A DNA stretch of 64,000 nt from Daucus carota subsp. sativus (lineage: Eukaryota; Streptophyta; Magnoliopsida; Apiales; Apiaceae): NCBI RefSeq assembly GCF_001625215.2, contig NC_030385.2, forward strand, positions 37,969,598 through 38,033,597, in the 5' to 3' direction. Shown in pieces: positions 10,692 through 59,361 of this stretch; position 1 is the stretch's first letter, and every line of letters starts with the position of its first letter. The notes under the pieces were generated by a model, which did no database searches, had not been told where the DNA came from, and saw only the letters and a list, made by a program, of their open reading frames with translations. Both the position numbers and the translations under genes were made by a program.

Positions 10692-12419
10692 TGGGTCAAC
10701 ACAAAAGCTCAGCTCAGCTCAGCTACTGTGTGTGTGTGTGTGTGTGTGTTTAGGGTTTTTGGGGATCTGGGGTTGCTTGGATCTGGGAGATGGTTGGTGG
10801 GGTTGGATCAATGGAGGGTTTAAAGCGAGTTGAAAATTGAGTGTATCAGTGTATGTATAGGTGTATATGTAGAAGAGAGTGAAGGGGGTGAAGAAGGCGC
10901 GAGCTGATGTAGATTGGAGATGATTATTGGGGGCTTGGGCTTTGTATTTTAATGTAACGGTACTGAACAAAATGTGGATATTATTATTCCGTTTAAGCGC
11001 GTTTTGCTTTTGATAGAATGTTAAAGAAATGGACTTTTGATTTGTACTTTTTCGGAGGAATATGATATTTGATTTTTCAGGAGAAAAAGATGAATGATTG
11101 ATGCGTTTTAATATATCAACTATTTATTTGAAAGACTCAAAGTAAGGATAGAGTATTTAAATGTAGAATAATATTCTACTTCTAATCTATATTTGTTGTT
11201 ATAACTTTTTAAAATCAAATGATAAATATGTAAAATCAATCAACAGTCTCTAACATGAAATATACGAGTCTCTAACAAGATATATATGAAACATAGATTA
11301 TCCCGTTAAAATATTGTCAAGAAAAAATTATGGGATAAAATTTTGACAATCTCTTATCGGGAAAATAAGAAAATTAATAATTGAAGTTTTGTCATAATAT
11401 ATTTTGAATCGATACATTCATCACAATTTTTTAAAAAACTGAATATGATTTTATGAATAAATCTGCAAATTGGTCATATCACCAAATTCCTAATCTATTT
11501 ATTTCATAATCCTTTAAATTGTTATTTGATTGATCAAAATTAATAAGATGATTATTTTGAATAATCATAAATTTAATCAACTCGGAACAATGATTATAGG
11601 GTTACAAATAACTTTACATCCGCAGTTTGTTGACCTTAATTTATGAAGAGAAACAAAAAAGTCCCTTTATATATAAATCAATGCGTGAGAACATATTAGA
11701 CAGTTTTGGTTAAAAATAATTGACTAAATTAGGCTTGTAAAAATATTTTGTATTTGTTGAAATTGTAAAATATTTAATTTCACCTCACTATATTAATTCG
11801 CTATTTTTAAGAGATATTGTACTTGTTGAAGCCCAGAGTTCTGTCATAACCCTAAAGCCCATGTGATCTGGTATACGCAAATTTGTCTATAAATACAGAA
11901 GCCTTCGTTACTTTATGCATAAAAACAAGGGGACTTTCTCAAGGCCGCGGTAATAATCTCCGGGGTTTTGCAAGTCTCAAGTCCTCTGATTTAATAAATA
12001 TGCTTGTTTATTTTTCTCAACTATATAATGGTTTTTCTTAAGCTGAACACTGTATGAGAGATTGAGAGCAATTTTTGAATACTGCACGTTGAACCGTGCG
12101 GTACATGATGATACTATCATGATAATTCTCGTATTATGCAACAAGTTCTTGAATAGTGCATGTCATAATGCGTTCGGGTGTTTTCTTATGATTTTATTTG
12201 CTGATTTTGAGGTTTTGTCGAGAATCAGTCCATCTAAAATGTTAAGCGTTCATCAGTCCATCTAATCTTAAGATGTTATCCAAAGTCCTCAATTAGATCT
12301 TATATTATATTTCAACGGGTTTTTATTTAATCATAACATATTGAAAATGGACATATTAACGTTGTTGCTAGTTAAATTGCAGGATCCTTGTTTTACCGGA
12401 AAAAGAAGAATTGAACACC
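10692..12419. promoter_or_regulatory. Divergent intergenic region: translocator and DUF674 promoters
   Basis: The two flanking genes point away from each other (minus to the left, plus to the right), so this 1.7 kb holds both promoters and 5'UTRs. A CTCAG/TG simple repeat sits in the presumed translocator 5'UTR. An ATTGCAG followed by GATCC at 12375-12385 could be the acceptor of a 5'UTR intron for the DUF674 gene, which is inferred only from consensus. The core (10980-11900) is AT-rich without other recognisable features. Confidence 0.5.
10707..10749. repeat. CTCAG and TG microsatellites, translocator 5'UTR
   Basis: A short CTCAG repeat (about four units) is followed directly by a roughly 22 bp TG run. 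On the minus-strand transcript this reads as a CA tract then CTGAG repeats, 15-60 bases before the ATG at 10691. It is probably part of the 5'UTR and likely length-polymorphic. Confidence 0.85.
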
Positions 12420-14058
12420 ATGGCAATTGTAGTAAGTTCAGAGGCTGCCGCGAGAGCAGTTGTAGTAAGCTCAAAGGATGCCGAAAGAGAAGTTGATATT
12501 CCTGTTAAATTGGTAATAGATAAAGAGAAGAAACGAGTAGTTTTTGCTGAAGCAGATGGTGATTTTGCTGATATCTTGTTCAGCTTCCTCACATTGCCAA
12601 TGGGGACAATTATAAGACTCTTGGCACAACATTCTGATCAATCGAAGCAGTTGAATATTGGGAATTTCAACACTTTATGTAGCAGTGTGAAGAATCTTGA
12701 TGCAAAGTACTTTGTGACGGATGTAAGCAAGGATCTGCTGACCAATACCAGAAATCTAGCAGACTATGAATGTCGTCGTCTTAGGATCAATATTGATGAT
12801 ACTAAGCCCGCTCAGCACTTCGTTTGTCAGAATTTGGATTGTATTGTAGACCAAGATCTTCCCTCTCTGAGCACTTGCAATATTGCAAAATGCAGAAGGT
12901 GCGGGGACTACTTGAAAACGCCAATAAATTTTTTAGATGACATGAGGGAGAATAACAGTGGAGTTTTCTTTGCTCAAACCGCGTCTTTTATCATCACTGA
13001 TGCTCTAAATGTATTTCCTAATACTATGGGCTCAACTTTTGAAATACTAGAGATGGCTGGAGTCTCAGATTTTGGAGTTCTTGAAGAGACAACCCTTCAA
13101 TTTGGTTCGCATGAGGTAATTTGTAATTGAATGTTTTTTTGACATTTATTTGTCATAATCAAGCTTCCTCCCTGTGCAGCCATGCCTAATCACCTTTAAC
13201 TCTTGCTTGTAGATTCTTGAGCTGCTAAAGTGTTCCTTATTCTCCAAGACCCCTTTGTCAGATATGGTTTTTGGTGAGAAAGATATCGTCAAGGACATAG
13301 TTCTTATACCATCTTTCCAGTGTCGGATAAGTACAGAGCACATATACGGTTTTATAAACATGACAGTGAACGTATTGGTCCAAAAGTCGACTAAGAAAAT
13401 ATTGTTGGCTCAAACTGCAGAAGATTTTGTAGAATTTCTATTTGGTTTCCTCGCGATGCCTTTAGGAAGAATCATTAGTTTTTTGGGCGAAAGTTTTTCA
13501 TCAGATGGGACAGTTGAAAATTTACACAATAGCCTGCCAAATTTGGATGTTGGCAGATACTTTAAATTTGATGAACTAAGACAGATTTTACTATACCCTG
13601 AAGTGGATTATGGCTCCTACCATTCATTATATTTTAGAAAAGAATGGAGTCGAGACTTCTATTACACTAGCAGGCGCGAGTCTTCTTATGAGGAGGATAC
13701 CTTCCATTTGACTAGAGAGGGTGGTCCGGTGATGAAAATTGAACATCCAAAGGAATACTTGAGGGGGCCAAAAATGTTTCTGGTGACGGATGACTTGATT
13801 GTGACTCCTTTTTCATCCATGTCTTGTATCACTTATCTTCACAGTTTGAAAGTTTCTCCAGGGGATGTTGAGGAACACCAGATCAACATAGGCCCGGAAG
13901 AGGTAAAACACAAAGCACAGAGAAACAAAATTTTAGCTCTTGTCTGATATACTTGCACTAAATTTTAATTTTTTTTGCAGGCCTTGAACTTATTGAGGGC
14001 ATGTATGATATCTACTTCAGTTTTGAACAACGGCCTTGGCTCCTTGCAAGTCTTTTAA
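12420..14058 (+). CDS. DUF674 family protein with two repeat halves
   Basis: Three exons (12420-13115, 13213-13902, 13981-14058; GT-AG, both introns phase 0) encode 487 residues. The start is the ATG at 12420, in an ACCATGG context. The first half carries a block with KLVIDKEKKRVVFAEADGDF and then FLTLPMGTIIRLL. The second half repeats it as VNVLVQKSTKKILLAQTAEDF and FGFLAMPLGRIISFLGE. This twofold architecture is what plant DUF674 proteins show (established knowledge of the family). The first half also has two CxxC-like pairs (around CRRCG). No signal peptide or membrane segment is evident. Molecular function is unknown. DUF674 genes often occur in lineage-specific clusters, but only one copy is in this window. 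The reading frame is intact and the C-terminus after the second repeat is short (25 residues in exon 3). Confidence 0.88.
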
Positions 14059-35941: not shown

Positions 35942-37883
35942 TGTCATTAAATGCAATGTGTGTACCTAAAGTATGCCTCTTGTGCAAGGTGTGTACCTAA
36001 AGTTTCGATTAAGCAAAATGTGTACCTAAACTATACGTAATGGTGCAATGTGTGTGCTTCTGTGAAGTGTGGTTAACAGACGTTAAGTCTGTCTTCTTTC
36101 CCCTTCATTTTCTCCCTCCATAAAGCACATACTTGCTCTCTCAAACACTATACATGCATAGTCATTAGCTCCAATTTCACCAACCCATATCAAGGCCTCA
36201 TCAAACACTACCTTGCACTTCTGTGATGTAGCTTTTATGTCTATACACCCTTGACTATCTAAGAACTTTGTAAACCAAGAAAGTTGAGTTTCGAGTGACT
36301 CTGGGGTATAATCCTGTCTGATATGTTCTGTACAAAGAATTCATGCTCTATAGCTGTGGAACCAGCAACTGCAAAATTTACACCACTTGACTTATCAGCA
36401 GTTGTGTTACGATGAGGTGGTTATAAATATGGTAAAGACAACAACTTAGATACAAAGTCGATCACGAGGCATTTGTCAGAGTATCTGTTGGTGGCATGCT
36501 GAAAGAATGTTTTGCCATAAGGAGGGTTGTGTTGCCACTTGCCAGTGTCACAGAGGGAGTCTCCAAATGCATATATTTTTCCAAATGACCGCGTACAATT
36601 CATTTGGACATGAGCGGAAGAAGATAGTGTGAGAATGTTGATGATGGTTATTTTGAAGGCAAAACTCATGATGTGTAAGTTTTGTTAATGAAAGCTCTTG
36701 ATCAATTAAATTTGCCTAGAACGCAAGAGATCTGAACACTGTGAACTTGTAATTCTTTTAAATTCTTGGTACAGTGGACTGGTAGAAAATAAGAATGTCT
36801 TTAATTTTAAGACTACCTGAAAATATAAAAATTGTATTTTCATATAAATTTATATTATTATAAATCATAAATAATAAATTATATAAAAGTAATATTATTT
36901 ATATTTATGTAAAAAATAATAAAAAATATTATATTGAATAATCTATTTTTACAAATAATATTACATTGTATATGTGATTGTTTACGTTAATTAATATGAT
37001 TTTTTTTTGACAAATAAGGCTTATAACCTTACAAATGAGTATTTGTTCTAAGATTAATTTATAAACAAATTTTAAATTATAAATTGTAAAAGAAAACTAC
37101 ATAAGTTAAGTTTTAATGGTTTTGAATATTAAATTCTTATTAGATATTTACATAATTTTTTATACGAAAATCAAAGATTTAAGATAAATAAATAAATAAA
37201 TAATTTATTTAATCAAATTAAGTACTATATTTAATATATACAGTGTTTTATCAAATTTGGACCCCTTAAAATTTGAGTCCCGGCTCAAATGCTCCACTTG
37301 CACATGTTAATAGGCCACTTTACTTTTCGAAATGTTTATTGCAATTGAGGTATAAATACGTTCAGATCCTTTCAATTCGTTGCCTCCTAAACTATTGATT
37401 TTTATAAGAAATGTATTTCTTTGAGCACAAAATTAAAAAATTAATTTAATTTGAGCACAACTAAACAATATGAAAACAATTGAGTAAATTAATCTAAACC
37501 AAGGATAATTGGGAATTTGGCATGCGATCATGTCTTAAGAATACAGAACAATCTTCGAACAACACACAACCACATCGAGATAAATTATGACTACAGTAGA
37601 ACCCTTTAAATCAAAAACTCCTCTGCACAGCCATGCATGAACCCACATGGATAATACATTTCCATCCAAGCAAAAAATGAAGACCGCGGCTAGGAAAGAG
37701 GGAGCAAGTATGTGCTTTATGGAGGGAAAGAACACAGACTTAACGTCTGTTAGCCACACTTCACAGCAGCACACACATTGCACCATTATGTACAGTTTAG
37801 GTACACATTTTGCTTAATTGAAACTTTAGGTACACACCTTGCACAAGAGGCATATTTTAGGTACACACATTGCACTTTACTCT
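35942..37883. mobile_element. Mutator-like element with 190-200 bp TIRs carrying a GDSL fragment
   Basis: Long inverted repeats run from about 35942 to 36145 and from about 37695 to 37883. The left arm reads GCAATGTGTGTACCTAAAGT, TGCCTCTTGTGCAAGG, then CAGACGTTAAGTCTGT. The right arm carries the inverse of each in order. The arms contain several GTGTACCTAAA sub-repeats. There is no transposase. The interior has a broken GDSL esterase/lipase piece next to the left arm and AT-rich sequence. Clear target duplications were not found, so the outer ends are accurate only to about 10 bases. Similar ends are seen in the element at 61021, which has a 9 bp duplication, supporting the Mutator-like assignment. 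Confidence 0.75.
36148..36669 (-). pseudogene. GDSL esterase/lipase fragment captured in a transposon
   Basis: Reading minus from 36669: a hydrophobic signal-peptide-like start, IYAFGDSLCDTGKW (GDSL block I with the nucleophile Ser), PPYGKTFFQHATNRYSDKC and LVIDFVSKLLSLPYL. An in-frame stop follows (36421-36423). The same frame resumes with PPHRNTTADKSSGVNFAVAG. After a shift of frame near 36313 it goes on as TPESLETQLSWFTKFLDSQG and a GEIGANDY block (the conserved Asn-containing block III). The piece stops at the TIR boundary, so the C-terminal catalytic Asp-His region is missing. Known family role: secreted or vacuolar ester hydrolysis. This copy cannot encode a functional enzyme. Confidence 0.85.
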
Positions 37884-37948
37884 TAGATTATTGAATTTTG
37901 CTAATCAGTAAGGACAGGTGCAAACTTTGGGCCTGCCACAAAAGAATG

Positions 37949-39722
37949 TGTTGATAGAGGAATTTGGTAATCAACAAAGATGAGGTTCATGGCCGGAATC
38001 AAGATCCGTGACGGTGGTTTTGGTCGCCGGAGAGTGGTGGTTGTTTGTTTTAGGGGGTGGCTGAGATTAGGGTTTTGAGTTGGTCTCACGTGCTCTCAAC
38101 TCATGATCCCCCAATGTGCCTACGTACCCCTATATTTATAGGGGATCAAGCCATACGTAGTTCTATGGAACCAGGAGTCCTAGTTTGATCAGGACTAGGC
38201 CTCTTGGCAATAAGGTCGGAGATAGGCCGAAGGCCCATCTTGGAGAATCCTACTCCTGTTAGAATTAGTCTTGAGTATGACTACCTCAGACTCCTAATCC
38301 AAATAGATCACGGATTCAACGATATCTCCACTACGAGAGATAGCATCTACCACGACTCTTATGGAGAAGTTATCTGGGGGAGCCATGACTAACCCCTCGA
38401 GGTGCAGGGACACGTCCTCACCTCTCGGTGAGGTCTTCATCTTCAAACAAGGTAGACAAGGAGCCAAATTACACGATCGTCTCAATCCCCCGATGAGGGC
38501 TAACTCACCAGAATACAGGATCCAGACATATGATCGGCCTTCGTGTTACCCCGGAGGGCCTTCAAGAGCCATGATCACCTCAAGCCCCCACACGAGGGTT
38601 AACTCGGCAGATAGCAGGATTGAGGATTGTAGATCATGCCCGGATGAGCCCGGGAACTATCAGATGAGCCTGATAACTACCAAATGAGCTTGGTAACTAG
38701 TCTTCATATCCCTCGGAAGGGTTGTCACGGAGACTCACTCATCCTCTTTCTTTCATCATGTATTTCATAACTATGCCTCTTCTGAGTCAAAGGACGCGCC
38801 CTGATAGGGAGGACGTGTCCTTCCCAATTCCCGTCTTCATTCCTGTTTACTTGGACAAGAGACCGCACCTCCCGGGCCATGTCTGGGGAGGGCGCGTCCT
38901 TCCCTTATCTTGTCTTCAATCCTCCTTACTGGACAAGAGACCACACCTCCCGGGCCATGTCTGGGGAGGGCGTGTCCTTCCCTTATCTTGTCTTCAATCC
39001 TCCTTACTGGACAAGAGACCGCACCTCCCGGGCCATGTCTGGGGAGGGCGTGTCCTTCCCTTATCTTGTCTTCAATCCTCCTTACTGGACAAGAGACCGC
39101 ACCTCCCGGGCCATGTCTGGGGAGGGCGCGTCCTCCCCTCCACATGATATACAAAAACGGCTACAACACCTCGGAAGAGTCGTCGTATCCCCCGGAGGGG
39201 TCGTCATATCCCCCCGGAGGGGTAGGTCTTCCTATCCCCGGAGGGACGGTCTTCGTCTCCCTCGGAAGGGTTGTCTCAGCGAATGTACACTCTCTCATAA
39301 GAAGAGCCTTCTTACAACACATCAGACAGGTCCTTCTTTAACATGAGGTCGCGCCCCCGGGGAGGCGAGGACACCCCGTTAAAGGCACGCCCTTGGTCTT
39401 CATCTCATTGTCAACTTCTTACAAGGGACGCGCCCCTCGGTCACCTCCGAAGAGGGCGTGCCCTCCTCCACATATTACAGGACGTGGGTGGACGGAGGTC
39501 GGTCGCGTCTCTCCATCAACACTCTCAAGTAAGGCGTCCCTCCTTGTGACTCGGAGGACGCGTCCTTTTCAAGCAACACCAAGGGTCGGTCGCGTCCTCA
39601 CTTTATAAGCAGGAGGACGCGTCCTTCCTTTATATAGGACTCTTAGCCCAATTCATGTCTTACTTAGTTAAACTAAGTACATACTTGGCCCAACAAGGAC
39701 CTAGCCAAATTTGGCTATAACA
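37949..39722 (-). repeat. Left LTR (3' LTR in element orientation)
   Basis: 1774 bp, bounded by TG and CA, and apparently identical to the right LTR over its whole length. It carries four tandem 78 bp units and many GACGCGTCC and GGCGCGTCC motifs. On the minus strand the U5-like part reads through a CCCTAATCTCAGCC segment common in plant LTR leaders. Confidence 0.93.
38851..39140. repeat. 78 bp tandem array (about 3.7 units) in left LTR
   Basis: Units begin at 38853, 38931, 39009 and 39087 with GGACAAGAGACC, then CCTCCCGGGCCATGTCTGGG and GAGGGCGCGTCC. The period of 78 bases equals 26 codons, so several frames stay open by chance on both strands. These should not be read as genes. Confidence 0.93.
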
Positions 39723-40585
39723 AGTACTCCCCAAATTTTCTTGATATTGGAGATATCAGGGAAATTTTTACTCCATACCACACATCCTCTTCCGAGAGGG
39801 CGTCCGCCCATAGAGGCGTGACGTAAGCCACTTCTATTCCTCGACATTCCAAGATGCAGGCTGTGCACAAGCCTTGCATGTATATAATGTCGGTGTCTTT
39901 GATCATTTAGCAAAGTTGCTAAGCATGAGGCTGTCGCGTCTTCTTGATGTGTTCATAAATAATAAGCAATCTTTATGTAGACAAAAGAAAACAGGGGGCG
40001 CGGCCTATCTGTTGTTGACAGTGGCGCAGCTTCGCTTATTCCTTCCAAAGGACACATTCAACCATAACATTCGCGCCAATGAACTTCAACAAAAGAAGGG
40101 CGCGCCCTCGCTGTGCGAAGGTTTGTGGGTTTTTTTTTTTTTTTTTTTAGCCTTAGTGTGTCCATGGTACCTGGGAATAGTAAATATAAGGCGCGACTTA
40201 CAGAGTGGCGCTGCCTTGTTATAACATGACCCCTTTTAATTCTTTTTGTTAAAGAATTGCCTAAGCAGAGGGCGCGGCTGATGGCGCTGCCTTGCAATAT
40301 TTCTTTTCTTTCAAGGACTGTATAAGCAGAGGGCGCAGCCTTACTTGTAATGTGGGCTCTTTTGATCTTTTCCAAGGATTAAGTAGAGGGCGCGGCCTTT
40401 GGCGCAGCTTTACTTTTTCACGCGTGAATCACTTGCTTAAGAAAATCAAGAGGACCACTCCCCAGTCCATACATCTTCCCATATGGGGCATCACGAATCT
40501 TATCGTGGTTTTCATAACTCCGGTGCATCGCACAGGTCCCAGAGCTCATAGCTCAATGGGGAATGAATAGTATAAAATGTTATCC

Positions 40586-40790
40586 AGAGCATATCATGGA
40601 TATGTAAGATCCAGAGCGTATCATGGATGCGCAAGTATAATGTCCAGAGCGTATCATGGATGCGCAAATATAGTATCCGGAGCGTATCATGGATATGTAA
40701 ATAATCATAGCATCCAGAGTAGATCGTGGATGACATCCAGAGCGTATCATGGATGGTTAAAATTCATAGTACCCAGAGCTGGTCATGGAT
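40586..40790. repeat. Imperfect tandem array of CCAGAGCGTATCATGGATG units
   Basis: Seven imperfect units of a roughly 19 bp core (CCAGAGCGTATCATGGAT) are separated by 8-16 bp variable spacers. Spacer lengths vary, so this is a clustered repeat and not a strict minisatellite. It lies inside the retrotransposon interior. Confidence 0.88.
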
Positions 40791-41837
40791 AATTTGGTAA
40801 CCTTTGAAAGGCCTTAAGTGTACCTTGATCAAAGACCTTGCAGGTATCATGCTACGTTCCTGTAGAACGGAGGGCGCGCCCTCATCAAGATGGACAGCTC
40901 CTTTAGCATGTTGGACTTGACCTGCACTTTATCATGTATACGACTTAATACTGATGGTCAGTGTTACCTCACGACGCGCCCTGTTAGGGGAAGACGCGTC
41001 CTCCCAAATTATCAACCCTGGAAACATGACTTTGGAACTCGGGGTGCGTCCAACTAGGAGGAGGCGCGTCTTTGAAGCATCTCCCTTCTCAACCTTATTA
41101 TCCTGGGGGCGCGCCCTCATGCGCTTCCTCAAGTGATGAGTACTTCCGAGAGGGCGCGCCCCAGGGAGGGACGTGACCTCTTCAAGACTAGTGAGCTCCT
41201 TCCTAAGTATGTTTGTCTTCACAAAATATCATATGAAGCAATTAATGCATCAGACATACCAGAGGGCGCGCCCTGTCAGAGGGAGGCGCGCAATTCGTTC
41301 TCTGATAGAATACTGGTTGGATATGGCGTACCCCTTTAGGAGGGCGCGCCTTGTTGGAGGAAAGTGCGACTACTCCTCACGGAGAAGAGGTGTACTCCTC
41401 TTAAAGGTAACACCATATTACCTGTGAATTTACACATGTAGTAGTCTTAGGGAACCAAATACTGGGGGAGTTTAGTATTTACCTGAGGGCGCGCCCGGTC
41501 AGGGGAAGGCGCGCATCCTTACGACTTTTCGAGCTAGGTTCCATCTCAATAGCTCGCCCTTCGTAACTTTCCCGTTCATATCATCACATGTGGTCAGGCC
41601 TTCAACATGCGCCTCTCGCGAACCTCAAATTACTTGCTCTGGGGAGGGCGCGCCCCTTCAGAAAACCGTTGAGGCTTCCAGGGAGGCGATCTCCTTCTCG
41701 TAAAGACTCAAACCACAACAGACTTGTTAGCAATAACATGCGAAAGCATTGTGAGAATCTTACCCGGAGGTGCGCCTTCTTCGGAGGTGTTAGGGAATTC
41801 GTTCCTCACGGTGGTAGTCGAGCACCACATCACTTGG

Positions 41838-41990
41838 AGGCGTACCCTGTCAGGGGGAGGTGTACCCTGTCCAGGGGAGGTGTACTCTATCCGGGGGAGG
41901 TGTACCCTGTCCAGGGGAGGTGTACTCTGTCCGGGGGAGGTGTACTCTGTCCGGGGGAGGCGTACTCTGTCCGGGGGAGGCGTACCCTCT
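41838..41990. repeat. 20 bp minisatellite in LTR element interior
   Basis: About eight consecutive units of GGGGGAGGTGTACYCTGTCC with a 20 bp period. Variants are C/T and GGTGTA versus GGCGTA. The period is not a multiple of three. It lies in the part of the interior nearest the putative primer-binding site. Confidence 0.92.
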
Positions 41991-42261
41991 TCGTAGGTGT
42001 CAGGTCTCCGAAAATCACATCCTTCGCTGACTCCCCGGTCCAGAAAACCCTGATCGCAAATTAGGTTACCTCCTAGAATTTCGTTGATGATCGTCCTCCT
42101 TCAAACTCCCGATGGAGATATCGTCCTTTTCCTGAAAAAGTAGATGAAGGTCTCCTCCTCTTTTGTGCTCTAGCCATCGCCCTGCCGGAAAACGCTCCTC
42201 CTCTACGTGCGAATCTCCGTCGTGTGACATCTCTTCCTCCTAAGATGAAGATCTTGAATAG

Positions 42262-42282
42262 CCCCTCCTTCTAGCGCCAATT
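42262..42282 (-). other. Candidate primer-binding site of the LTR element
   Basis: On the minus strand the LTR end CTATCAACA is followed after two bases by TTGGCGCTAGAAGGAGGGG. TTGGCGC directly after the LTR is typical of the tRNA primer site in plant Gypsy-type elements. The exact tRNA was not identified. Confidence 0.6.
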
Positions 42283-44056
42283 TGTTGATAGAGGAATTTG
42301 GTAATCAACAAAGATGAGGTTCATGGCCGGAATCAAGATCCGTGACGGTGGTTTTGGTCGCCGGAGAGTGGTGGTTGTTTGTTTTAGGGGGTGGCTGAGA
42401 TTAGGGTTTTGAGTTGGTCTCACGTGCTCTCAACTCATGATCCCCCAATGTGCCTACGTACCCCTATATTTATAGGGGATCAAGCCATACGTAGTTCTAT
42501 GGAACCAGGAGTCCTAGTTTGATCAGGACTAGGCCTCTTGGCAATAAGGTCGGAGATAGGCCGAAGGCCCATCTTGGAGAATCCTACTCCTGTTAGAATT
42601 AGTCTTGAGTATGACTACCTCAGACTCCTAATCCAAATAGATCACGGATTCAACGATATCTCCACTACGAGAGATAGCATCTACCACGACTCTTATGGAG
42701 AAGTTATCTGGGGGAGCCATGACTAACCCCTCGAGGTGCAGGGACACGTCCTCACCTCTCGGTGAGGTCTTCATCTTCAAACAAGGTAGACAAGGAGCCA
42801 AATTACACGATCGTCTCAATCCCCCGATGAGGGCTAACTCACCAGAATACAGGATCCAGACATATGATCGGCCTTCGTGTTACCCCGGAGGGCCTTCAAG
42901 AGCCATGATCACCTCAAGCCCCCACACGAGGGTTAACTCGGCAGATAGCAGGATTGAGGATTGTAGATCATGCCCGGATGAGCCCGGGAACTATCAGATG
43001 AGCCTGATAACTACCAAATGAGCTTGGTAACTAGTCTTCATATCCCTCGGAAGGGTTGTCACGGAGACTCACTCATCCTCTTTCTTTCATCATGTATTTC
43101 ATAACTATGCCTCTTCTGAGTCAAAGGACGCGCCCTGATAGGGAGGACGTGTCCTTCCCAATTCCCGTCTTCATTCCTGTTTACTTGGACAAGAGACCGC
43201 ACCTCCCGGGCCATGTCTGGGGAGGGCGCGTCCTTCCCTTATCTTGTCTTCAATCCTCCTTACTGGACAAGAGACCACACCTCCCGGGCCATGTCTGGGG
43301 AGGGCGTGTCCTTCCCTTATCTTGTCTTCAATCCTCCTTACTGGACAAGAGACCGCACCTCCCGGGCCATGTCTGGGGAGGGCGTGTCCTTCCCTTATCT
43401 TGTCTTCAATCCTCCTTACTGGACAAGAGACCGCACCTCCCGGGCCATGTCTGGGGAGGGCGCGTCCTCCCCTCCACATGATATACAAAAACGGCTACAA
43501 CACCTCGGAAGAGTCGTCGTATCCCCCGGAGGGGTCGTCATATCCCCCCGGAGGGGTAGGTCTTCCTATCCCCGGAGGGACGGTCTTCGTCTCCCTCGGA
43601 AGGGTTGTCTCAGCGAATGTACACTCTCTCATAAGAAGAGCCTTCTTACAACACATCAGACAGGTCCTTCTTTAACATGAGGTCGCGCCCCCGGGGAGGC
43701 GAGGACACCCCGTTAAAGGCACGCCCTTGGTCTTCATCTCATTGTCAACTTCTTACAAGGGACGCGCCCCTCGGTCACCTCCGAAGAGGGCGTGCCCTCC
43801 TCCACATATTACAGGACGTGGGTGGACGGAGGTCGGTCGCGTCTCTCCATCAACACTCTCAAGTAAGGCGTCCCTCCTTGTGACTCGGAGGACGCGTCCT
43901 TTTCAAGCAACACCAAGGGTCGGTCGCGTCCTCACTTTATAAGCAGGAGGACGCGTCCTTCCTTTATATAGGACTCTTAGCCCAATTCATGTCTTACTTA
44001 GTTAAACTAAGTACATACTTGGCCCAACAAGGACCTAGCCAAATTTGGCTATAACA
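42283..44056 (-). repeat. Right LTR (5' LTR in element orientation)
   Basis: 1774 bp, same boundaries as the left LTR (offset 4334 bases), with no difference noticed by eye. In the element's orientation, U3 would run from 44056 to about 42480. A TATAAATA box lies near 42468-42476 and the remaining 180 bases are R-U5. Confidence 0.93.
43185..43474. repeat. 78 bp tandem array in right LTR
   Basis: Exact counterpart of the array at 38851-39140, with the same unit number and same variant order (GACCACACC in the second unit). This shows that the LTRs were copied from one template recently. Confidence 0.93.
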
Positions 44057-44061
44057 GAATG

Positions 44062-58680: not shown

Positions 58681-58800
58681 AAAGGAGAAGCATGAGGCGT
58701 TTAGGTGGCGCCTCTCGCATCGCTCCGTTTTATTTTTCTTAAAGGAGAAGCATGAGGCGTTTAGGTGGCGCCTCTCGCATCGCTCCGTTTTATTTTTCTA
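58681..58800. repeat. 60 bp tandem duplication, with a third diverged copy near 59000
   Basis: AAAGGAGAAGCATGAGGCGT followed by TTAGGTGGCGCCTCTCGCAT occurs at 58681 and 58741, almost identically, and again at 59001 as GGAGAAGCATGGGGCGTTTA with changes. The third copy is followed by a repeated 180 bp stretch (GAAAAATATCAAAAATTAGA and on). Confidence 0.9.
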
Positions 58801-59361
58801 ATTTTTTGGAATTTTTGGATGAAAAATATCAAAAATTAGAACTACTCTTTTTAGTTTCAGATGTATTGGAAGCAAGTTTCGAATCTGATTTTGTTTCAGA
58901 TTATTTATGAAATATAGCAGCTTGAAAATTTTAATCTAATTTTGTTTCAGATTATTTAATTATGGGAAAAAATAGCACACAAGTCTCTCTGCACCTATAT
59001 AAAGGAGAAGCATGGGGCGTTTAGGTGGCGCCTCTCACATCGTTTCGTTCTATTTTTCTAATTTTCTCGAATTTTTGGATGAAAAATATCAAAAATTAGA
59101 ACTATCTTTTTTAGTTTCGGATGTATTGGAAGCAAGTTTCAGAATCTGATTTTGTTTCAGATTATTTATGGAATATAGCAGCTTGAAAGTTTTAATCTGA
59201 TTTTGTTTCAGATTATTTAATAATGGGAAAGAGTAGCACACAAGTCTCTCTGCATCTATAAATATCCTTATAGGTTGTAGGGTTTTGGATCATCTAAACA
59301 CAGCCTATTCTCTCTCAATACCACAACCCTACCTCTCTCTGGTGATAGTTCTCTTGCTCGA

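Follow-up and report, generated by a model that had tools for sequence, protein, structure and literature searches.

A CGCG-centred palindromic motif array in a carrot LTR retrotransposon without recognisable coding sequence

Structure of the host element

We analyzed a 64-kb stretch of the carrot genome (Daucus carota subsp. sativus, contig NC_030385.2, positions 37,969,598 to 38,033,597), referred to below as the window and numbered from its first base. It contains a long terminal repeat (LTR) retrotransposon of 6,108 bp that hosts a dense array of an 8-bp CpG palindrome, GGCGCGCC, and of a wider, degenerate 14-bp motif, GAGGGCGCGCCCTC. The element is made up of two LTRs of 1774 bp each, running from TG to CA, and of a 2560-bp interior whose limits, 39723-42282, are exact. 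Because there are zero differences between the LTRs over 1774 bp, the insertion is young as judged from its sequence. It is enclosed by a 5-bp target-site duplication (TSD), GAATG, with identical copies at 37944-37948 and 44057-44061.

The primer binding site (PBS), TGGCGCTAGAAGGAGGGG, is located at 42262-42279 on the minus strand beside the right-hand LTR, from whose end it is separated by 3 nt (AAT), so that the junction reads CA/AAT and then TGGCGCTAGAAGGAGGGG. The polypurine tract (PPT) region, AAAATTTGGGGAGTACT (39723-39739, minus strand), adjoins the left-hand LTR. From these two positions it follows that the sense of the element is the minus strand. In this orientation, the 5' LTR is at 42283-44056 and the 3' LTR at 37949-39722, both on that strand. 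A second copy of the PPT 15-mer AAAATTTGGGGAGTA was sought in the interior at up to 4 mismatches, and none was found. In the conventional place, at sense LTR position 1582, there is a TATA-like sequence, CTATAAATATAG (42464-42475, minus strand; copy in the other LTR at 38130-38141). An alternative TATA-like sequence, CTATATAAA, occurs at sense LTR position 86 (43963-43971, minus strand), shortly upstream of one GGACGCGTCC. Another 14-bp palindrome, AGCCAAATTTGGCT, was observed in each LTR (39703-39716 and 44037-44050), 6 bp from its start in the sense orientation and near the end that integrase would handle.

In one LTR plus the interior, all 20 stop-to-stop frames of at least 75 amino acids lacked a Pfam match above the cut-off. 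Sub-threshold matches over frames of a 78-bp repeat (best E value, 0.0024) were taken as chance, and a coding origin of the repeats was rejected. By its sequence, the element is an LTR retrotransposon without recognisable coding sequence, hence non-autonomous, and would be copied by enzymes from another element. The LARD-like class of non-autonomous elements is defined by LTRs, TSD, PBS, and PPT around a non-coding interior, all of which are present here. No match to a known RNA at the Rfam gathering score and no tRNA were found in the 64-kb window. Retrozymes, which are defined by a hammerhead ribozyme in their LTRs, were ruled out by the absence of a hammerhead match at that score in the window. 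A scan of viral contigs for the exact patterns of the PBS and the LTR start returned nothing, as expected for a plant element.

The PBS resembles the 3' end of what we take to be plant tRNA-Asn. Publications are cited here by accession number and from excerpts of their text. According to PMC6317226, tRNA-Asn is used by 2% of the analyzed plant elements, tRNA-Met is used in every Ty1/copia lineage that employs a whole tRNA and in most chromoviruses, and Ty3/gypsy elements other than chromoviruses do without tRNA-Met. Since the PBS is of the tRNA-Asn type, this tRNA usage makes a derivative of a non-chromovirus Ty3/gypsy element the most likely origin, an assignment for which the PBS is the sole basis.

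The palindrome and its degenerate family

All motif results refer to one element copy with two identical LTRs. The palindrome GGCGCGCC was found in eight exact copies in the window, all of them in the interior and spanning 1,556 bp (40099 to 41654), as the sequence-only reading had stated in reporting an eight-base CpG palindrome at least eight times within about 1.6 kb. The copies are located at 40099-40106, 40873-40880, 41108-41115, 41153-41160, 41265-41272, 41343-41350, 41488-41495, and 41647-41654. The copy at 40873 stands within a perfect 14-bp palindrome, GAGGGCGCGCCCTC. A 19-T run at 40130-40148 (poly-A in the sense strand) was observed near the copy at 40099. Markov models of the interior predicted means of 0.04, 0.23, 1.18, and 1.53 copies at orders 1, 2, 3, and 4, respectively, and eight or more copies were reached in 0 of 400 simulated interiors at each order. 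The eight copies are not due to chance, and the earlier statement that they far exceed expectation was confirmed. Other parts of that reading were too broad. Its claim that the palindrome lies mostly inside a longer sequence applies to GAGGGCGCGCC, which holds six of the eight exact sites, and fails for the full 13-mer GAGGGCGCGCCCT, which holds only two. The related GGACGCGTCC, said to occur many times in the LTRs, is the LTR form of the same motif family and was found just twice per LTR, four times in all.

The eight exact palindromes are the best matches of a graded GAGGGCGCGCCCTC family. Sites were defined as 14-mers with at least 7 of 8 core matches or at least 11 of 14 total matches to GAGGGCGCGCCCTC. 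Against about 1.3 expected, one LTR plus the interior contain 30 such sites (11 and 19, respectively), a count that is descriptive and not a blind test, as the consensus was taken from the same sequence. Mean numbers over 200 Markov-1 simulations each were 0.88 for the interior (maximum, 4) and 0.38 for the LTR (maximum, 3), and the remaining 57,892 bp of the window contain a single site. On the plus strand, the 19 interior sites (8 exact and 11 degenerate) span 39994-41779. The 11 LTR sites, including GGACGCGTCC at 39556 and 39615, span 38790-39626, that is, sense positions 97-920 of 1774 in the 3' LTR. Ten of the 11 are in the first half of the LTR, upstream of the TATA-like CTATAAATATAG. 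The best-kept positions of the 14-mer across the 30 sites are 4, 6 to 9, and 11, with 0 to 3 mismatches each, which together form the skeleton G-CGCG-C. Positions 5 and 10 vary, with 7 and 13 mismatches, respectively.

In methylated plant DNA, CpG positions are often the most mutable. Methylation decay would be expected to leave extra changes at the CpGs of the motif, and no such surplus is seen. For the interior, the LTR, and the 20 kb to the left of the element, the observed-to-expected CpG ratios were 0.81, 0.69, and 0.66, respectively; masking of the 30 sites lowered the first two to 0.70 and 0.63. The contrast is not strong and says little on methylation.

The flanks of the exact sites were compared over 25 bp without gaps. 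For all 28 pairs of the eight sites, the mean identity was 0.27 in direct and 0.26 in inverted orientation, compared with 0.25 (standard deviation [SD], 0.07) when 500 pairs of interior positions were drawn at random. The best real pair reached 0.46. The exact sites at 41265 and 41488 are each followed 20 bp on by a second motif across a similar spacer. The description of the palindromes as standing in otherwise unlike sequence thus holds for the average flank and not for these two sites. Three motif pairs are spaced by exactly 20 bp and four motif spacings measure 78 bp. The latter belong to a 78-bp tandem array of 4.3 copies with four counted motif sites (38807-39139, plus strand; identical array at 43141-43473). 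Besides the three pairs, there is a 20-bp tandem array of 7.7 copies of GGAGGTGTACCCTGTCCGGG (41836-41988, plus strand), outside the 30 counted sites. Its unit looks like the 14-bp motif with TA replacing the second CG. The motif has spread partly through local duplication. The proposal that the palindromes were selected or propagated is supported by the 30 sites found against about 1.3 expected and by their mostly unlike flanks.

The element holds several different arrays of hairpin-like units. A 33-bp tandem array of 3.9 copies (40581-40703, plus strand) has the dyad-like unit ATCCA...TGGAT, and the region 40581-40790 comprises 33-bp and 59-bp arrays of this second dyad-like unit, ATCCAGAGCGTATCATGGAT; neither is related to the CGCG motif. 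Elsewhere in the window, neighbouring genes match DUF674, proteasome alpha subunit, pfkB kinases, and O-fucosyltransferase, families consistent with a plant genome. At 12372-13944, two adjacent frames match the DUF674 profile (Pfam PF05056), one its first and the other its second half, and perhaps belong to a single intron-containing gene. At 35949-37877, two terminal inverted repeats of about 190 bp with 88% identity stand about 1.6 kb apart; they end about 70 bp before the LTR element and probably delimit a MULE- or MITE-like DNA element. Outside the LTR element, at 58740-59260, about 260 bp are duplicated directly in tandem with 93% identity.

Proposed protein-binding sites and rival explanations

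The excess of sites, their distribution, the well-kept G-CGCG-C skeleton, and the local tandem amplification are observations. The reading that best fits this pattern is one of putative protein-binding sites. The palindromes would be multiplied cis-regulatory DNA sites through which a CGCG-reading protein tunes transcription, with CAMTA/SR1 as the candidate reader. We hold this reading tentatively and give it a rough probability of 0.47. Several results point to double-stranded DNA as the working form, without proving it. The proposed unit, GAGGGCGCGCCCTC, measures about 14 bp and is centred on CGCG; in its double-stranded form it would be recognised through this core by a protein, which would tune transcription of the element. 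Copies may have been multiplied via slippage or tandem duplication in units of 20 and 78 bp, after which selection would have preserved them as the flanking sequence diverged.

Among host proteins, the stress factor CAMTA/SR1 is the most specific candidate. VCGCGB, whose V and B are the variable positions 5 and 10, is reported as the binding site of SR1/CAMTA3 (PMC4890006), and 22 of the 30 sites are centred on it. Its density is 6.64 per kb in the interior and 3.38 per kb in the LTR, compared with 0.33 per kb in the rest of the window (about 20-fold and 10-fold higher, respectively), an enrichment that largely follows from the CGCG core itself and thus names a candidate without proving it. 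A review reports that CAMTA binding is affected by the distance between CGCG elements (PMC13290587). Unlike in the published CGCG box (PMC4890006), the motif here extends into flanking GAGGG/CCCTC.

Several points weigh against regulatory sites of this kind. MCGTGT, the other CAMTA site, occurs 0 times in the interior, and the interior sites are downstream of the promoter. The left half of the motif on the plus strand (GAGGGCG) is better kept than the right half in 20 sites and less well kept in 8, with 2 equal (29 versus 54 mismatches), an asymmetry not required of a site for a symmetric dimer. At Markov orders 3 and 4, the interior has about as many 6- and 8-bp palindromes as expected, and the LTR shows no excess of 8-bp palindromes. 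Within the core, the four CpG positions carry 6 mismatches and the four other positions 22 (one-sided binomial P = 0.0019), or 4 and 19 when three of the four 78-bp tandem copies are left out (P = 0.0013); these P values are indicative only, as the sites are not independent (tandem copies and 20-bp pairs) and the motif was chosen post hoc. The selection criterion weights core positions alike, so the contrast is not an artefact of site selection. It is, however, due to positions 5 and 10, since the non-CpG positions 4 and 11 are kept equally well (0 and 2 mismatches, respectively). The pattern is moreover that of a single element. Because the CpG contrast is confined to positions 5 and 10 and the sites are not independent, we weighed protein-binding sites slightly lower and neutral spread slightly higher.

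According to the latter explanation, which we regard as unlikely, the array has no function and is a by-product of the spread of a GC-rich motif within the element, through repeated local duplication, slippage, and jumps between templates in reverse transcription, which palindromes promote. Neutral spread is consistent with the several tandem arrays, two of which (78 bp and 20 bp) hold the motif or a motif-like unit, and with the exact 20-bp and 78-bp spacings. Duplicated longer units would also give the biased orientation of the motif, and the CpG positions are kept no better than positions 4 and 11. It fits less well with the flanks of the eight exact sites, hardly above random identity save for the one pair at 0.46, and with the missing excess of CpG changes expected from decay. 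In addition, Watson-Crick pairs across the two arms number 153, compared with 143.7 (SD, 3.8) after shuffling, and 23 of 2000 shuffles reach 153; without three tandem copies, the values are 139 and 129.2, with 11 of 2000 shuffles reaching 139. This excess is modest, as the site criterion is itself palindromic.

A role at the RNA level, as hairpins for dimerisation or packaging of genomic RNA or, at a cost to the element, for small-RNA production, appears improbable. Interior folding was evaluated in 17 windows of 150 nt per strand against 60 dinucleotide shuffles. Three of these (41073-41522) beat the shuffles on both strands, with z scores of -2.3 to -2.4 for sense and -2.7 to -3.9 for antisense. 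In the LTR, predicted energies below -40 kcal/mol were obtained for 36 of 167 sense and 32 of 167 antisense windows of 110 nt, compared with 2 and 1 of 195 to the right of the element. Small RNAs are drawn to palindrome clusters in maize Sireviruses, as reported in PMC10760457, which we counted in favour of this explanation. On the other side, neither strand is clearly more stable than its shuffles in the three other windows with exact sites (40023, 40773, and 41523; z, -1.5 to 0.7), and the interior folds better in antisense (mean z, -1.22) than in sense (-0.72), 25 control windows on one strand giving a mean of -0.18. Likewise, 30 of 245 antisense and 6 of 245 sense windows of the interior fall below -40 kcal/mol. 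Wobble pairs also favour the antisense strand, with 26 G.T against 12 A.C on the plus strand, or 19 against 12 without three tandem copies.

In retroviruses such as HIV-1, the dimer initiation site presents its palindrome in the loop of a sense-RNA hairpin. In local sense folds of 88-nt stretches, pairing involves 7 or 8 of the 8 core bases at all but one of the eight exact sites; at that site, 41108, it involves 5. This result is a thermodynamic prediction only. As the sense core is mostly paired, no exposed palindromic loop of the HIV-1 type is predicted, and a dimer initiation site of the retroviral type is disfavoured. On the antisense strand, a CGCG loop is predicted at two of the eight sites (40873 and 41647). 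The suggestion of RNA hairpins for dimerisation or packaging is thus disfavoured by these models, with the core paired, the antisense fold in the interior at least as stable as the sense fold, and wobbles that do not favour sense; the hairpins could still feed small-RNA pathways.

The remaining explanation, which we consider the least probable, draws on an analogy with the VANC proteins of VANDAL elements. The motif would be an address tag for a DNA-binding protein made by an autonomous partner, for example one like TRP28, that relieves silencing or drives transcription, and it would have been kept and multiplied in LTR and interior for expression and copying in trans. VANC proteins target short motifs in non-coding regions that have multiplied in tandem (PMC5735166), an anatomy shared by the present array. 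Retand elements encode an antisense protein, TRP28, predicted to bind DNA (PMC11963269), and Retand belongs to those Ty3/gypsy lineages for which PMC6317226 reports no use of tRNA-Met. Against this explanation, the element itself has no recognisable protein, and its lineage was assigned solely from the PBS. If such a partner protein did read the motif, this would be a VANC-like system in an LTR retrotransposon.

Relation to known systems and significance

By its anatomy, the array may work like the palindromic repeated motifs of Sireviruses. Each of these Ty1/copia elements carries the repeated motif 8 to 32 times, chiefly in the upper LTR half and the linker and amid diverged sequence, and the motif forms CpG islands upstream of the TATA box (PMC2829016). 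The same source calls dense palindromic motifs Sirevirus specific among the Ty1/copia elements compared. The carrot element shares a short, dyad-symmetric, CpG-containing motif in at least eight copies in the first half of the LTR and the interior, diverged flanks, and a position upstream of a TATA-like site; under our own near-consensus definition, its 30 sites (11 LTR and 19 interior) exceed the eight or more copies in LTR and linker that mark a Sirevirus. Nevertheless, Sirevirus membership was rejected on three features. The Sirevirus PBS, TATCAGAGC, is complementary to tRNA-Met and follows CA/ATTGG, whereas the PBS here is of the tRNA-Asn type. The Sirevirus motif has a CGG-CCG core instead of CGCG, and CGG(N0-9)CCG occurs 0 times in the interior and 4 times in the LTR, although 1 of the 13 published motifs, that of Tnd-1, likewise lacks this core (PMC2829016). 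Sireviruses also have multiple PPTs near the 3' LTR, in contrast to one here. The element differs further in its lack of recognisable coding sequence, Sireviruses having a copia-type gag-pol, and in its TATA-like site in the conventional position, about 650 bp after the last LTR motif.

With Tat/Retand Ty3/gypsy elements (PMC11963269), it shares a PBS that is not of the tRNA-Met type (its tRNA-Asn identity being presumed), a 5-bp TSD, tandem arrays in the non-coding interior, and the existence of non-autonomous members. It differs in having no gag-pol, with none of the RT, RH, and INT sequences whose phylogeny, together with an RH of archaeal type, marks the Tat clade, and in its 1774-bp LTR, compared with 315 to 1,194 bp in recent Retand clusters. 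An antisense TRP28 open reading frame is found in 97% of those clusters, and none was recognised among the 20 frames searched here with Pfam. Tandem repeats are frequent between pol and the 3' LTR of Retand, and their function is called unknown in the same excerpt. VANDAL elements, likewise mobile, resemble the present case in that a short motif recurs in their non-coding parts and has been amplified in tandem (PMC5735166). They are DNA transposons, however, with a non-palindromic motif, YAGTATTAY, and a known cognate protein. Among the open-licence literature matches listed, there was no report of CGCG or GGCGCGCC palindrome arrays in a Ty3/gypsy or non-coding element, which is weak evidence of absence. 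The excerpt of PMC12844716 adds no palindromic motif.

The motif array is real, non-random, and probably cis-regulatory. Its kind is already known from other plant retrotransposons, the Sireviruses, from which the CGCG core and the gene-less host set it apart. The same architecture with a different core, a non-copia primer site, and no genes in the element would point to a repeated origin of such arrays, which would be among the few things that a non-autonomous element must keep. Combining a very young insertion with a compact set of motifs, the element would be a convenient object for weighing a host stress factor, an element-encoded protein, and small RNAs against each other.

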